Shown here: piece after piece, positions 25,342 through 34,959 of the stretch
Layout: each line of letters opens with the position of its first letter
Numbering within the stretch: position 1 is the first letter of the stretch
Assembly: GCA_020793565.1 (NCBI GenBank)
Contig: DQIP01000225.1
Span: 1 to 40,509 of the forward strand
Length of the DNA stretch: 40,509 nucleotides
Direction: 5' to 3'
Source: Candidatus Methanovorans sp.
GTDB taxonomy: Archaea; Halobacteriota; Methanosarcinia; Methanosarcinales; Methanosarcinaceae
Position numbers and translations under genes: made by a program
Notes under the pieces: model-generated
Told to the model about the DNA's origin: nothing
The model's database searches: none
Seen by the model: the letters and a program-made list of their open reading frames with translations, nothing else

Positions 25342-27468
25342 ATCCCCAACTCCTCAAAGTTATTCTTAATAGTCGCCGCCAACCGTATAGCCTCAACATT
25401 AAGGTCTTCCAGCTCCACATGAATCTCGCGCAGGGTCTCCTCAAAGTCGAAGTCCTCATCCACTTCTTCGGGGGCAACGCCGACGTAACGCCCCGGAGTC
25501 AGGCTCCAGTCGTTAGCCTCGATCCCGGCGCGGTCCACCAGCTTGACCAGCCCCTCCACATCGCAAAGCTTAGCCTCCGGGAAGCGCTCAGTAAGCCAGT
25601 GGGCCTGCTGCCAGAAATAACGCACCTGCTTGAGCTGCTAGACCGCAAGCTGGCGGGCTTCGTTTGCGGTCTTGCGGGCGCGGATAACGTTCTTGCTCAC
25701 CCAGACGTCGCTCTGCCTGGCATTGCATTCCTTCTCGCAGGTCTCAATGAGGCGCAAGGCGAGCTTGTAAAGCAGGTCGGTCTGCTTGATAAGATCACGG
25801 CTCGATTCAGCCAGCGTAGCGAGGCGGTCAATGGCCTGTTTGAGATCGCCGTTCGTGGTCTTCTGCTGTTGCCAAGCAGTTTCCTGTTCGTCAAGAGCTT
25901 CCTTGAACACCTTGACGTCTGCATGGAAAACAGGCAGTGCCCCGGTCAATTCCTTCTGCACCTCGGCGTGAAGTGCGTCGTCAGCCAGCGTGTTTAGGAA
26001 AGGTTGTATGATATCATTAAGGGAATTGAGCGCGGCTGCGAAGTCAGGCAAAGGCTGGCTGGTTTCGCCGTTTTCGCCCCCGGTGTTGAAACAGCCTGCG
26101 CCTTCGTCAAGTGTCCGACGGCAGTACCCTGAGACAAGGTCAAGGTATTTCTCGGTCTCGCTGCGATAGAGCCAAACGATAGCCAGCAGGTTTTGCTGCT
26201 GCTCGGGGCTGAAATCGTATATCTTGCGGGTAACCTTACGGTAGACATTGCGTGCGTCGATCATCAGTACCTTATCGCGGTGTGCCTCGGGCCTGTCGCG
26301 GTTCAGGAACCACAACTCACATGGTACTGTGCGAGTGTAGAAAAAATTAGAGCGTATGGATACCATCACGTCCACATCGCCGGTTTCGACCAGATTCTGG
26401 CGCACTTTTGCCTCGCCGCCCCCTGCGCTAGAGGCTTGTGACGACATAACAAAGCCGGCTCGTCCTTTTTCATTAAGGTAACTGTAGAAATAACTGATCC
26501 AGACATAGTTGCCGTTTGAGACCTTCCCCTTCTTGTTGACACCTGGTAATCCAAAGGGAAGGCGCGGGTCGGTCTTGACCTTATCCGCATCTATCTCGTC
26601 CACGTTGAACGGGGGATTTGCCATCACGAAGTCGGCCTTACCGACCAATTTGTGGGGGTCTTCATAATAAGTGATCGCCTTCTGGATATCGCCTTCGAGA
26701 CCGTGGACGGCCAGGTTCATCTTGGCCAGGCGAATGGTGGTAGCGTTCTTCTCCAGACCACGGAAGGTGAGCCGGTCAATAGGGCTCTGGCCGTGTTCTT
26801 CCACGATACGCGCACTTTGTACGAACATACCACCGGAACCGCAGGCAGGGTTCCAATACCGTGCCGCCCTCGGGGTCGAGCACATGGGCGATGAGTGAGA
26901 CCAGCGAGACGGGTGTAAAGAACTCGCCGCCGTCGTGTGCCTTTTGGTCGGCGAACTGGGTGAGGAAGTACTCATAAATACGGCCAAAAACATCGCCTGA
27001 AACTTTTTTCAGCTCGTCGGGGTTGAGTTTCCGCAGGAGTTGGCCGAGTACATCGTTGTCCAGTTCCTGATACTCAGTCTTGGGCAGCACGCCGCGCAGG
27101 TTGTCGTAGTCGCTCTCGATCGATTCCATCGCCTCGATGATGGCCCTGGCGCGGTCTTCGCTGTCGGGCAGGGCCATGAGATGGTCGAACTGTGCTCTGG
27201 GCTGAAGGAATATTGCGCTCTGCTGAGAAAAGTCCTCCTTGGTTAAAGCCCGCGTCTTGCCGCCACGGGTGGGAAGATTAGTCTCAATACCATCCTTCAC
27301 CGAGAGGTAGCGGCTATAGGCGTGCCTGAGAAACACCAGCCCCATCACTGGCATGAAGTACTCGTTACTGGCGTAATTTGAGTTGGCTCGCATCGTGTCG
27401 GCCGCACCCCAGAGGCGCTTTTCAATTGCTTCAATGTGTTCAAGTTGGGTCAATATGTGATTCTCCAA
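25338..27468 (-). pseudogene. hsdM: Type I DNA methyltransferase HsdM, frameshift plus in-frame amber codon
   Basis: The gene encodes a full-length HsdM (about 709 codons) in three pieces. Piece 1 (27468-26776 frame) has the N-terminal helical domain up to 'DPEGGTVLEP'. An extra base at about 26847 breaks the SAM motif; removing it gives 'EPACGSGGMF'. Piece 2 (to 25638) carries 'FVMANPPFNVDEI' (NPPF motif) and 'SKNVIRARKTANEARQLAV', then TAG at 25638-25640. The same frame continues as 'QLKQVRYFWQQAHWL' to the normal C-terminus 'DFDFEETLREIHVELEDLN' and stop at 25338. TAG is one change from GAG (Glu). HsdM methylates adenine with HsdS. The DNA is more GC-rich than flanking genes, suggesting transfer. 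Confidence 0.88.
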
Positions 27469-29840: not shown

Positions 29841-30692
29841 ATGAGCTCAAAAAACAAAGAAAACCTGCTGGATATTATTGAAAAACGTGCGCTTATAAAT
29901 AAAGCAAAGGTTGCGATCGGAATTCGTGACCCTACCGCTAAAATACTAATGAGTGCCAAAGCCGCACAGGATGCTGGTTTTGCAAAGGTTGTCCTGGTAG
30001 GGAATAAACAGGAGATCGAAGCGATAGGTACTGACCTGGAGATCGTTGACACAGGCGAACCTGAAAAAACGATATGTGATCTTCTTGCATCAAGAGATGT
30101 TGATGCAGCAATCAGGGGAACGGCGCGTGCATCAGGTGCACTTTCGCATCTTAAAGAGGTGCTTGGTATGAAAAAACTACATCGTCTTGCACTTCTCCTG
30201 GACAATGATGGTAATCCATTCTTCATAGCACCTGTTGGTATTGACGAAGGTTCCAATAATGAAGATAAAATTGAATTTCTCAAACTGGGAACTGAACATA
30301 TACGCAGGTTCGGAATTGAACCTGTTGTAGGGATCCTTTCAGGTGGAAGGATTGGTGACCTTGGGCGGGATGAATGGGTTGACCACACGATATATAATGC
30401 CAGATTTGTAACCACTCGCGCTAAGGGACTGGGAATCACTGTAAAAAACTATAATATACTCATAGAAGATGCCATTAAAGAAGCGAATTTTATTCTTGCA
30501 CCGGATGGGATTTCCGGAAACCTTATATTCAGGACTCTGGTTTTTTTGGGTGGCGGAGATGGGATAGGCGCACCGGTGCTCATGGATGATTATGTATTCG
30601 TAGACACATCACGTGTGGGTGGACATTACACAAAAGCCATTATGCTTGCCAGCGCACTTGTTAGCATAAATGACATAAAGAACAGGCAATGA
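29841..30692 (+). CDS. mtxX: MtxX, methanogen marker protein 4
   Basis: A 283-residue MtxX protein, related in fold to phosphate acetyl/butyryltransferases and found in methanogens and relatives; its reaction is not established. Recognisable stretches are '[19 protein letters not shown]' (about 22-40), '[19 protein letters not shown]' (about 89-107), and '[24 protein letters not shown]' (about 235-258, in part). It heads an operon with an MtrA-like and an MtrH-like gene, the order described as mtxXAH in Methanosarcina. This context suggests a role in corrinoid-dependent methyl transfer. ATG 29841 is supported by the TATA position. Confidence 0.88.
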
Positions 30693-30729
30693 TTGATGGC
30701 AAAACGGAAGTTTAAATTTAAAAACAAGG

Positions 30730-31341
30730 ATGATCAATTTGGAATCTATTGCACCGGAATGGCCAGTGGTAAAAGGTGATTATGTTGTTGGCACGCCTGA
30801 ATCAAGAATTGCTGTTGTAACACTTGCAAGTACGCTTGAACCTTATCTTGATGCTGCTATTTGGGGTACCTGTAAAACAGAGAACCTCGGTGCTGAAAAG
30901 ATTATTGCAAATATCATCTCCAATTCGAATATAAGGTATATTCTCGTTTGTGGTGGTGAATCGCGTGGGCACCTTGCAGGACAGACATTGCTTGCACTCC
31001 ACAAAAACGGAATTGATGAACATGGCAGGATCATAGGATCAGGTGGTGCGATCCCGTTTATTGAGAATATCAAAATAGATGCGATCGAGCGTTTTCAAAA
31101 ACAGGTTAGATTCATTGTGCATATCGGATTGACAGATATAGGCCAGATACGGCAAATTGTGAATGACTATAAGAACAAAGGTGCTGTGTATGATGAGGAA
31201 ACGATGGTTGTTGGTACGACAAAGAAAAAACATGCCGCTCCCAACAAACCAATATCCGGAGACCTGATGATCTCCGATGAATTTATGGTGGATGTCACAG
31301 CAGGTATTATATATTCTGCTGAAGTAGAAGCGTTACAATGA
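30730..31341 (+). CDS. mtxA: MtrA-like corrinoid protein (MtxA)
   Basis: A 203-residue homologue of MtrA, the corrinoid subunit of the Na+-pumping methyl-H4MPT:CoM methyltransferase. It keeps 'EWPVVKGDYVVGTPESRIAVVTL', seen here around residues 8-30, 'CGGESRGHLAGQTLLALHKNGID' with the His that ligates cobalt in MtrA ('ALHKNG', about residue 91), and 'GGAIPFIENI'. The usual C-terminal membrane helix of MtrA is absent, so the protein should be soluble. It lies 37 bp after mtxX and 43 bp before the MtrH-like gene. It would carry methyl groups between MtrH-like and unknown partners (inference). Confidence 0.88.
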   Translation: MINLESIAPEWPVVKGDYVVGTPESRIAVVTLASTLEPYLDAAIWGTCKTENLGAEKIIANIISNSNIRYILVCGGESRGHLAGQTLLALHKNGIDEHGRIIGSGGAIPFIENIKIDAIERFQKQVRFIVHIGLTDIGQIRQIVNDYKNKGAVYDEETMVVGTTKKKHAAPNKPISGDLMISDEFMVDVTAGIIYSAEVEALQ

Positions 31342-31384
31342 TATTGGTGATATGTGGACGTATAATAGCAAAATAAGGGGAAAA

Positions 31385-32317
31385 ATGTTCAGGTTTCAAA
31401 AAGAGCAAGAGATCGTTAATATCGCGGGCATAAAAATTGGAGGGCAACCCGGTGAACTGCCCACTGCGCTTGCAGGCACGATTTTCTACAATAACCATAA
31501 GATCGTGCAAGATGCCGCAGCTGGCATATTTGACAGGAATGCTGCTGAAAGACTTGTAAATATTCAGGAAATGAACTCCGATGAAACCGGAAATCCACAT
31601 TTGATCCATATATTCGGAACTACCGCAAAAAGCATCACAAATTATATTGATTTTATAACAGGTATCACTGATGCTCCTTTTCTGATCGATTCCCCTGAAG
31701 CGTCAGTACGGATGCATGCGGTTGAGTATGTTACTGATATCGGGCTTGCTGATAAGACAATATATAATTCTATTAACATGAGCATCACAGACAATGAACA
31801 TAAAGCATTGAAACGATCTGATGTCGATACTGCAATACTTCTTGGATTCAATGCAATGAATTCTTCACTGGATGGCAGGATGGCACTGCTTGAAAATGGC
31901 GGCGGGATCATAGAAACCGGACTTATGGATATTGCACAGGAATGCGGGATTACGAACATACTTGTTGACCCGAGTATTACTCCCATGGGAGATGGTGCCG
32001 GTGTTGCACTCCGTATGACACTTACTGCAAAAGCGAAGTGGGGTCATCCGACAGGGTCGGGGATCCACAATGCCCCATCTGCATGGAACTGGCTTAAAGC
32101 GAAGCGAAAAGAAGACCCGCAGATATCCCGTATATGTGACATTGCTTCAACATGCTTGCAGCAGGTCGCAGCAGGTGATTTTGTGCTATATGGTCCAATT
32201 GAAAATGCACCCTACACATTCCCACTGGCTGCAATGAGTGACATTATGATCTCAGAGGCTTCTGCTGATCTTGATATTGAACCATCAAGCAGCCATCCGA
32301 TAAACATATTAGTATAA
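31385..32317 (+). CDS. mtxH: MtrH-like methyltransferase (MtxH)
   Basis: A 310-residue homologue of MtrH, which moves the methyl group between tetrahydromethanopterin and the corrinoid of MtrA. It has the TIM-barrel pattern 'IAGIKIGGQPGELPTALAG', 'DAPFLIDSPEASVRMHA', 'ILVDPSITPMGDGAG' and 'KWGHPTGSGIHNAPSAW'. I chose ATG 31385 over an upstream in-frame start at 31352 because AAGGGG lies 4 bases before it and the protein then begins at the family N-terminus. It ends the mtxXAH operon and converges on the AOR operon. Being outside a complete mtr operon, it probably works with MtxA rather than the main Mtr complex. Confidence 0.88.
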   Translation: MFRFQKEQEIVNIAGIKIGGQPGELPTALAGTIFYNNHKIVQDAAAGIFDRNAAERLVNIQEMNSDETGNPHLIHIFGTTAKSITNYIDFITGITDAPFLIDSPEASVRMHAVEYVTDIGLADKTIYNSINMSITDNEHKALKRSDVDTAILLGFNAMNSSLDGRMALLENGGGIIETGLMDIAQECGITNILVDPSITPMGDGAGVALRMTLTAKAKWGHPTGSGIHNAPSAWNWLKAKRKEDPQISRICDIASTCLQQVAAGDFVLYGPIENAPYTFPLAAMSDIMISEASADLDIEPSSSHPINILV

Positions 32318-32419
32318 AATGTTATTTTGTTCAGCCAAACGTTGTGATGGCACACCTGACCGCAGCAGAATTACCACGGCAATTCTTGATCCAGGCGCTA
32401 CAGGATGAAGTGACCGGGA

Positions 32420-32578
32420 TCAATCGATCCTTGTGCCTTGGAAAGTAGTTCCCCTGCCGCGTGCACATTGTATGCACACACCGGTTGATGTATCCACGCA
32501 ATTCCTGCAAACAAGTCTTCCACATAGCATACAGGTGAACAACTTTCCAGTTCCTCCGCATATTGTACAATTACCCAT
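32420..32578 (-). CDS. 52-residue four-CxxC zinc-binding protein, third gene of the AOR operon
   Basis: ATG 32578 opens 52 codons to TGA 32420-32422. The product has eight Cys in four CxxC pairs at residues 4/7, 16/19, 24/27 and 35/38, with 'CTICGGTGKLFTCMLCGRL' in the first half; this pattern can bind two zinc ions. It follows the AOR stop by 20 bp on the same strand. The ribosome site is weak. The regular spacing makes chance unlikely. No family is known to me; a partner or maturation factor of AOR is one guess, a small regulator another. Confidence 0.7.
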   Translation of the reverse strand: MGNCTICGGTGKLFTCMLCGRLVCRNCVDTSTGVCIQCARGRGTTFQGTRID

Positions 32579-32598
32579 TAGTTCCAAATGATCACGCC

Positions 32599-34371
32599 CT
32601 ACGTCTTACCTGTGCTCCACCGTCTATCTTTATACATCGATAGTACATTTTGAACTCTCGCTTCATCGATCATACCATTTGTAGATGCAGTTTCAAAAAA
32701 TCGAGAGGGAAATCTCACATCATCAAGATCAAAACCAAACTTTCGTTTTAGTTCATACTTTTTCATGAATATATCCCTGCCAAGTTCAATAAGTTCTTCT
32801 TCTGATCGCTCTATGCCTATTGCGGCAAGAGCCTCAATGATAGTATCATACGTATAAATACCGCGTGCGAACAGGCAAATTGTAAGTGAATTGAGAACTC
32901 CGCGTATGTCATCTTCAAATATCAGCAGATCAACGATCTCTTTATCCGAAAGATTATTCTTAAATGCTTTTTGGTCAATGCTATATCCCCCATTATCCAC
33001 ATGTGAGTGCCTGACCCCGACCGTTAATCCCACCAGATTCCCGACACCAGTGTGGTAGCCCGGAATTTCAAGTCCACCTGCATGTAGTGCAAAATCGTCC
33101 CCACCATATTTCCTTGAAGCAAAGACCACGCCTTTTGCGAGTGCAGAATAAAATTCATTTGGAGATTCGATTATCAGGTCAATTGCACGAAGGTAATTTG
33201 TGACATCACCCCACTTTAAAGAAACATTCATTGTCTCACCTGTTGTGAACCTTTTATGCATAGACATCTCTGTTGCCCATGCCAGCACACCGCCCATGCT
33301 TATTATGTCCACACCATATTGCTCACACCTGTCTATTAATTCCAATACGCTCTCCGGTGTGAGTATACCCAGGTTCGTACCAAGTGCATATACCAATTCA
33401 TAATCGTATGAAATATGCTTGACCTCATACTCATGCAGGGGTGCGAATAATGTTTTTAGCATTGCAATATGTATGCACCCGATCGGGCAGTGAGCACATG
33501 AGATCTTCCTGACAAGATAGTTATCAGCAAAGTTCTCGCCTGATATGGTTTCGGCATACTCGAAAGATGTCTGCTGCAAATTTCTTGTGGGCAGGCCATT
33601 TAATTCATTCAGGGGAAGTATGTTTTCAGTCGTACCAAGGTCATGATATTTATCCATGAGGTCGGTTTCAACAATATTGCTGAATATTTTCTTATAAGTA
33701 TTTGAATATGTACTTTTGTCAGGTATTTCAATTTCCCCATCCCCAGATACTACTATGGCTTTCAAATTCTTTGCACCAAACACTGCACCAAGCCCGAGGC
33801 GACCGAAATGACGATATGTATCTACGTTAACACTTGCATATCTTACACCGTTTTCCCCTGCTGTTCCAATTCGAATAATGCTGCGCTTGCCAATATTTGG
33901 CTCAACATTTCGCAATATCTTCCCTATATCAGTTGTTGAGGACAATCCCCAGATAGAAGATGCATCTTTAAAGGCAATATCATTGTTATGGATCGAAATA
34001 TAAACCGGACGTTTTGCACGTCCTGTTATTACGATCGAACTGTATCCCGCAAACCGCATTGCCATTGCAAGTCGTCCGCCAGCATGTGATTCACCGAATT
34101 CACCGGTAAGGGGGGACCTGAACACGGAAACCACTTTTGTGCAGCATGGGAAAATACCGGACAGGGGACCAATACTAAGTACCACAGGTGATACAGGGTC
34201 AAGAGCATCGGTTCCTTCTTTGGATCCTTCATTCATTAACATGGTGGCAACGCCGGTGCCGCCAAGATACTTATCGTGCAGGTCCTGCCGTTCCACCACT
34301 TTTGATGTTTCATTGGAAAGGTCGATGTATAACACATTTGCAAGACCGGAGATGGAAAATGTATTTGGCAC
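32599..34371 (-). CDS. Aldehyde ferredoxin oxidoreductase family protein
   Basis: A 590-residue tungsten/molybdenum-pterin enzyme of the AOR family, which oxidises aldehydes to acids with ferredoxin. The N-terminal pterin domain has 'YLGGTGVATMLM' and 'GEFGESHAGGRLAMAMRFAGY' (about 94-114, in part). The 4Fe-4S ligands are CAHCPIGC (about 290-297) and a later Cys in 'SLTICLFARG' (about 500). The gene starts directly after the stop of the four-cluster ferredoxin gene (34372), the usual electron-acceptor subunit, and is followed by a small zinc protein gene. The actual substrate is unknown. Confidence 0.93.
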   Translation of the reverse strand: MPNTFSISGLANVLYIDLSNETSKVVERQDLHDKYLGGTGVATMLMNEGSKEGTDALDPVSPVVLSIGPLSGIFPCCTKVVSVFRSPLTGEFGESHAGGRLAMAMRFAGYSSIVITGRAKRPVYISIHNNDIAFKDASSIWGLSSTTDIGKILRNVEPNIGKRSIIRIGTAGENGVRYASVNVDTYRHFGRLGLGAVFGAKNLKAIVVSGDGEIEIPDKSTYSNTYKKIFSNIVETDLMDKYHDLGTTENILPLNELNGLPTRNLQQTSFEYAETISGENFADNYLVRKISCAHCPIGCIHIAMLKTLFAPLHEYEVKHISYDYELVYALGTNLGILTPESVLELIDRCEQYGVDIISMGGVLAWATEMSMHKRFTTGETMNVSLKWGDVTNYLRAIDLIIESPNEFYSALAKGVVFASRKYGGDDFALHAGGLEIPGYHTGVGNLVGLTVGVRHSHVDNGGYSIDQKAFKNNLSDKEIVDLLIFEDDIRGVLNSLTICLFARGIYTYDTIIEALAAIGIERSEEELIELGRDIFMKKYELKRKFGFDLDDVRFPSRFFETASTNGMIDEARVQNVLSMYKDRRWSTGKT

Positions 34372-34815
34372 CTACTTTACCTCCTTATGTGATGTTTCTG
34401 CATGTGTTGTATCCGCACTGGGAACTTTTCTCATTTCAAGTACCTCGTGCGGACAAAAAGATGTGCAAATGCCACAGTGCCTGCAAACAATTGCCTTTGC
34501 ATTCCCATCCATGTGAATTGCACCGACAAGACATGCATCTGCACATTGCTCACAACCCGTGCACAGGTCGGTTTTTAATTCAACTCCGCCGCCATTTCTT
34601 TTTACAAGCGCACCTGTCGGGCATGCCCGGGAACATGGCGGATCAATGCACGCATGGCAGACAACTGAGACATATGCACTCTCAATTCCGCCACTTGTTT
34701 GTATGTCAATTGCACTGTTCTTCAGTGAAATTGTGCTATAATAGGTTCTGGCACAAGCCATCATACAGGAATAACAACCAATACAGCGAGCCTGGTTTGC
34801 AACCTTTATCCTCAT
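34372..34815 (-). CDS. Four-cluster polyferredoxin, AOR electron-transfer subunit
   Basis: A 147-residue ferredoxin of the HycB/DmsB-like type with four Cys groups: CIGCYSCMMAC (about 11-21), CHACIDPPCSRAC (about 53-65), CTGCEQCADAC (about 85-95) and CRHCGICTSFC (about 111-121). Each can supply a 4Fe-4S cluster. ATG 34815 is preferred because TTGGGAG upstream can serve as ribosome site; a TTG at 34836 would start inside it. It is the first gene of the AOR operon, its stop adjoining the AOR ATG. It would pass electrons from AOR to ferredoxin-linked metabolism. Confidence 0.9.
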   Translation of the reverse strand: MRIKVANQARCIGCYSCMMACARTYYSTISLKNSAIDIQTSGGIESAYVSVVCHACIDPPCSRACPTGALVKRNGGGVELKTDLCTGCEQCADACLVGAIHMDGNAKAIVCRHCGICTSFCPHEVLEMRKVPSADTTHAETSHKEVK

Positions 34816-34959
34816 CGGAATAGTATCAACTCCCAATTACTATTAGTAGCAAGATGAACTCAATGCGATATATTATTGCCGATTAGAAAAAAGTAGGATG
34901 ATGGTATCTTCCATCAAATCGATCAAATGTATGTATATTCGCAGCCACTATACATGTCA

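Follow-up and report, generated by a model that had tools for sequence, protein, structure and literature searches.

A small cysteine-rich gene behind an aldehyde oxidoreductase

What is encoded by a short, cysteine-rich reading frame that directly follows a tungsten aldehyde oxidoreductase (AOR) gene, and does its product serve that enzyme? The frame lies in a 40,509-nucleotide contig of Candidatus Methanovorans sp. (DQIP01000225.1), hereafter the window. Read from its ATG, it occupies positions 32578 to 32420 of the minus strand, starts 20 bp behind the stop of the AOR gene on the same strand, and yields MGNCTICGGTGKLFTCMLCGRLVCRNCVDTSTGVCIQCARGRGTTFQGTRID, with four CxxC pairs at residues 4/7, 16/19, 24/27 and 35/38. 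These coordinates and cysteine positions, noted in a first-pass annotation of the DNA, were confirmed. The features at issue are as follows.

32420-32587, minus strand: small gene, eight-cysteine finger protein; 55 codons from the predicted TTG start, MELMGNCTICGG...TRID
32590-32599, minus strand: Shine-Dalgarno-like GGGCGTGATC
32599-34371, minus strand: AOR (AFOR_N and AFOR_C, 590 aa), the upstream neighbor; Pfam 1.6e-65 and 1.5e-61
34372-34836, minus strand: 4Fe-4S ferredoxin-like AOR partner (154 aa) of the same cassette; Pfam Fer4 families
31352-32317, plus strand: mtrH-family gene, convergent with the small gene; MtrH 5.6e-119; its family (F3) lies within three genes of the small gene in 29 loci

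The ATG at 32578 is almost certainly not where translation begins. Family members share a start codon and an MExxG N-terminus, and these point to the TTG at 32587. At that position nearly all Methanosarcinia orthologues (more than 60) have ATG, TTG, CTG or GTG, and the codons that come next are GAR, two that vary, and GGN; the ATG at 32578 corresponds to the variable residue preceding the conserved glycine, which is not methionine in many of them. The TTG is common to the window and its five congeners (6/6), which, judging from their Methanosarcinaceae MAG labels, appear to be ANME-3-like. The spacing of the Shine-Dalgarno-like element suits the TTG, and its distance from the ATG is too great; in its place the congeners have GGACGTGATC or AGTGATT-type versions. 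With the TTG start, the product would thus be 55 residues long (MELMGNCTICGGTGKLFTCMLCGRLVCRNCVDTSTGVCIQCARGRGTTFQGTRID) and the gap to AOR would shrink to 11 bp. The length of 52 residues given earlier applies to the ATG reading and not to this product.

Coding status and distribution

The small frame is a real gene under purifying selection, given that nonsynonymous divergence is well below synonymous divergence and that orthologues are widespread. Between the window and the five congeneric genomes, dN is 0.036-0.070 versus a dS of 0.50-1.04, and most differences fall on third positions. Together with clear orthologues (E 1e-29 to 1e-7), this bears out the earlier proposal of a genuine gene below common length cut-offs, of a size that such cut-offs easily miss.

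A protein search of 120 relatives returned matches in 76 genomes; we left out five in which only long DHH-type proteins (about 740 aa) matched, leaving 71 with the small gene. Profile searches extended the family further: in the class, 144 of 238 genomes matched (we count about 140 with orthologues), and in a sample of the phylum 96 of 295, with many divergent forms among them; a few of the weakest matches again fall in long proteins. Named carriers include Methanosarcinaceae MAGs, Methanosarcina, Methanolobus, Methanoperedens and one contig labeled Thermoplasmata. Forms such as MSVTGLCQICESEQAQFTCDRCGALVCQAHYDPSTGYCTECA occur in genomes that we call haloarchaea-like from their sequence style and neighboring genes. 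Both the protein and the profile searches found the gene absent from several genera of Methanosarcinaceae, so its function is not indispensable. A search for plasmid-borne copies found none, and the open-licence papers searched contain no description of this family.

Proteins of 706-751 aa (L119-L128, E about 1e-5) were considered as relatives and rejected. In appearance they are of the DHH/RecJ type, with a DnaJ-like cysteine motif that accounts for the weak match; we judged the resemblance convergent from reading two of the sequences.

A predicted RING-like, two-metal finger

In an alignment of 53 family members, seven of the eight cysteines never vary, and the remaining position (residue 30) holds cysteine in 44 sequences and histidine in nine. 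Such constancy is what metal ligands would show; in the window protein the eight positions are spaced CxxC-x8-CxxC-x4-CxxC-x7-CxxC. The four ordered Cys/His ligand pairs of a binuclear treble-clef (RING-like) finger were found across the 53 sequences. Behind the last cysteine follows a short, basic tail (CxRGRG...), with glycine at position 44 in 40 of 53 sequences and arginine or lysine at position 45 in 37 of 53. A 2x[4Fe-4S] ferredoxin was ruled out as the identity of the protein, as it has no CxxCxxCxxxC motif.

The window protein reached no curated Pfam or NCBIfam cut-off. Its sub-threshold scores are 18.7 bits for B-box (PF00643, cut-off 24.1), 17.1 for ANCHR-like B-box, 14.1 for Prok-RING_4 and 12.7 for Prok-RING_2 (PF14445, cut-off 22.4); the Pfam search gave no zf-HIT (PF04438) match at E<=1. 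Several orthologues pass the Prok-RING_2 cut-off (up to 31.9 bits), two relatives pass that of zf-HIT (26.3 and 26.8 versus 24.7 bits), and many others come near the Pfam thresholds for B-box and ANCHR-like B-box. An AlphaFold2 model built from the 53-sequence alignment, without metals, has a mean pLDDT of 82, with block means above 90 in residues 11-40 and a low-scoring tail, and contains no DNA-binding helix. The best Foldseek probabilities for this model were 0.93 for a FYVE-type finger (1y02) and 0.89 for a PHD finger (2puy), at E values above 0.1, and the list also includes SWR1 chains that hold a HIT finger; nothing was found at E below 0.001. A sequence search of the PDB gave no significant match.

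Binuclear RING-like treble clefs have been discussed as a group that includes B-box, ZZ, zf-UBP and C1 (PMC4506424). Sequence profiles and the predicted model agree in pointing to Prok-RING_2, zf-HIT, B-box and PHD/FYVE-like fingers, and placement of the small protein among binuclear, RING-like treble clefs is well supported as to class, though not as to subfamily. Orthologues from one Methanolobus-like genus (g4) score above the Prok-RING_2 cut-off, the match spanning about 40 of 56 positions, whereas the window protein falls short of it, and the clustered neighbor families of the small gene included none recognizable as ubiquitin-like, E1, E2 or JAB. With zf-HIT and B-box (PF00643, PF22586) the protein shares the spacing of its first three pairs, CxxC-x8-CxxC-x4-CxxC. 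In contrast to these fingers, its fourth pair is CxxC, without the histidine ligands usual in HIT and B-box, and it is a single-domain protein whose window copy scores below cut-off.

Two groups of small archaeal proteins invite comparison. By their description, the C(P)XCG micro-proteins of Haloferax volcanii (HVO_2753 and HVO_0758 among them) are likewise stand-alone archaeal proteins of less than 70 aa with CxxCG knuckles, and the majority of those tested, though not all, bind zinc (PMC11241148, PMC10716476). Almost all of them have two C(P)XCG motifs, however, whereas CxxC occurs four times in the window protein and glycine follows just two of these pairs. MtrI (MM_2401) of Methanosarcina mazei is also small, zinc-binding, from Methanosarcinales and previously unannotated (PMC12774963), zinc being predicted in our case; but MtrI has 68 aa, four helices and a single four-cysteine zinc ribbon, compared with 55 aa and eight cysteines here. 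The nearby mtrA and mtrH genes and papers on small Mtr-binding proteins had suggested MtrI as the identity of the protein; length, fold and cysteine number rule this out, and PDB sequence searches gave no match to MtrI. MtrR, at 49 aa without aromatic residues, is set apart by its description, as the small protein contains phenylalanine.

Two 133-aa proteins (L178, L179) begin with a similar finger and continue into a long tail that is probably helical, an arrangement that recalls the B-box plus coiled-coil layout.

Adjacency to AOR is a local feature of gene order

The first-pass annotation had raised possible involvement in AOR maturation. An accessory factor for the adjoining enzyme, made from the same mRNA and acting in maturation, tungstopterin insertion or electron transfer, would suit the shared strand and the 11-bp gap in the window. 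Clustering of neighbor families, which took in 76 loci, placed AOR (F11) directly upstream of the small gene in 12 of 71 loci, namely those of the window, the five congeners and genera g5, g6 and g12, four genera in all. The 4Fe-4S partner (F13) precedes AOR wherever the contig extends far enough; the window copy was masked in the clustering by a longer overlapping reading frame and is visible in the reading-frame and Pfam analyses. Homologues thus do stand behind the same AOR and ferredoxin cassette elsewhere, but not always, and other neighbors are commoner.

Co-occurrence across genomes argues against such a factor. An orthologous AOR (E<=1e-100) is present in 39 of the 120 genomes. Of these, 32 also carry the small gene, next to AOR in 12 and apart from it in the other 20 (about 610 kb away in G016 and about 201 kb in G035, for instance); the remaining seven lack it. 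Conversely, three genomes with the small gene (G018, 94% complete; G024, 98%; G039, 99%) have no AFOR_C match at all, and elsewhere the gene stands behind ilvD or beside other neighbors. Because the two genes lie apart in 20 genomes and each is found without the other, adjacency to AOR is a local feature of gene order and indicates no general functional link. An AOR accessory protein was rejected as an identity, since neither co-occurrence nor co-localization is consistent; we hold this account to be extremely improbable, and a role in maturation is not supported.

The genome of the window contains six AFOR_C matches, and the window AOR is a divergent one, paired with a small 4Fe-4S protein.

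Other neighbors of the small gene

In most other Methanosarcinaceae the gene directly upstream is ilvD (F1; ILVD_EDD_N 7e-133), and where ilvD and AOR both occur the order is ilvD, F13, F11, small gene. In a few genera, then, the AOR and ferredoxin cassette sits between ilvD and the small gene, which is probably only co-transcribed with it. The neighbors vary by clade (ilvD, AOR, pdxS, a DHH phosphoesterase, pyrF), and no constant genomic partner emerged from the neighbor families of the compared loci. Much of Methanosarcinales retains the downstream, convergent cluster of the mtrH-mtrA-mtxX type, which in most genomes is separated from the small gene by an F4 or DHH (F2) gene. The cluster is not kept in Methanoperedens or most distant clades, and this synteny looks like inherited gene order. 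A regulator gene of the XRE type lies 1 bp upstream of the small gene on the contig labeled Thermoplasmata (L047), the sole such case, and PAC2 proteasome-chaperone-like genes lie within two genes of it in four loci (L156, L176, L114, L116); both are too few to carry weight.

Several further features of these neighborhoods were recorded. In the window, genes for PTA_PTB-like (mtxX-like), MtrA and MtrH proteins stand in a row on the plus strand (29841-32317), kept beside the small gene as F0, F7 and F3; we take this trio to resemble the mtxXAH cluster, which lies outside the main mtr operon. Several congeners have an F4 gene (no Pfam match; N-terminus MKRLTISMSDELFD) between the small gene and mtrH; the window lacks it, and only about 102 bp are left there (32318-32419). 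In Methanoperedens-type genomes (L040, L041, L043, L065, L077, L084), the last 22 bp of the small gene are shared with a convergent gene of the DHH family. The only ilvD match in the genome of the window is on another contig (G000:C189:321-1268), and in two congeners ilvD lies just upstream of the AOR cassette, a difference due to rearrangement or assembly.

A probable stand-alone finger and its possible roles

We think it likely that the small protein is a real, stand-alone, two-metal finger that is not specific to AOR, a member of a euryarchaeal family of single-domain fingers. From family resemblance, its eight cysteines would coordinate two metal ions, with Zn2+ the likeliest, and would probably do so in a cross-brace of pairs 1 with 3 and 2 with 4; the short, basic and presumably disordered tail may contact RNA or DNA. 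Its most plausible role would be as a small adaptor in the cytoplasm, contacting a single partner protein or, by way of the basic tail, an RNP or nucleic acid. This suggestion draws on the same shape in RING, B-box, HIT and PHD/FYVE fingers, and by that analogy we give an adaptor role roughly even chances. A narrower version, in which a euryarchaeal, stand-alone relative of the RING, HIT and B-box fingers acts as an adaptor in protein modification or turnover (SAMP/proteasome) or in RNP assembly, strikes us as very improbable, the four PAC2 loci lending it weak support; if true, the family would be a prokaryotic equivalent, in single-domain form, of the finger adaptors of eukaryotes.

Two other functions were weighed against an adaptor. 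A nucleic-acid-binding regulator, that is, a micro zinc-finger transcription or RNP factor, would account for the conserved basic stretch behind the last cysteine, and the XRE-type neighbor could be read in its favor. That neighbor occurs only once, however, RING-like binuclear treble clefs are mostly protein-binding, and the model lacks a DNA-binding helix; we consider this function unlikely, even with the precedent of haloarchaeal small zinc-finger proteins that serve as regulators (Brz, PMC2253796). A thiol redox switch, whose cysteine pairs would release zinc and form disulfides under oxidants and so alter partner binding, is in our estimate decidedly unlikely. Eight cysteines in 55 residues of a strict anaerobe would suit it, but the protein is also conserved in haloarchaea-like genomes, and most haloarchaea are aerobic; moreover, one ligand is replaced by histidine in the haloarchaea-like forms, a change easier to reconcile with a structural metal site than with a dithiol switch. 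Redox-responsive small proteins do exist in the same order, among them MtrI, a different protein, which binds Mtr after oxygen exposure (PMC12774963). For redox sensing, which the first-pass annotation had also entertained, the evidence gives no support and leaves a small probability; a structural finger that binds zinc would explain the protein more simply.

As a predicted archaeal zinc-finger micro-protein with a RING-like treble clef, the small protein belongs to a kind already known and is ordinary in that respect. Its description gives methanogens, methane oxidizers and probably haloarchaea one more well-conserved micro-protein family, most of which stays under curated cut-offs, corrects the start codon, and does away with a tempting but wrong functional tie between this family and tungsten aldehyde oxidoreductases. 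Knock-out or pull-down experiments are feasible thanks to orthologues in Methanosarcina and, judged by profile, in haloarchaea-like genomes.

Elsewhere in the window, an HsdM-like DNA methylase appears to be split across two overlapping frames on the minus strand (25638-27468), one of 230 aa (HsdM_N and the start of N6_Mtase) followed by one of 451 aa; a frameshift, a pseudogene or an assembly error would account for the split.
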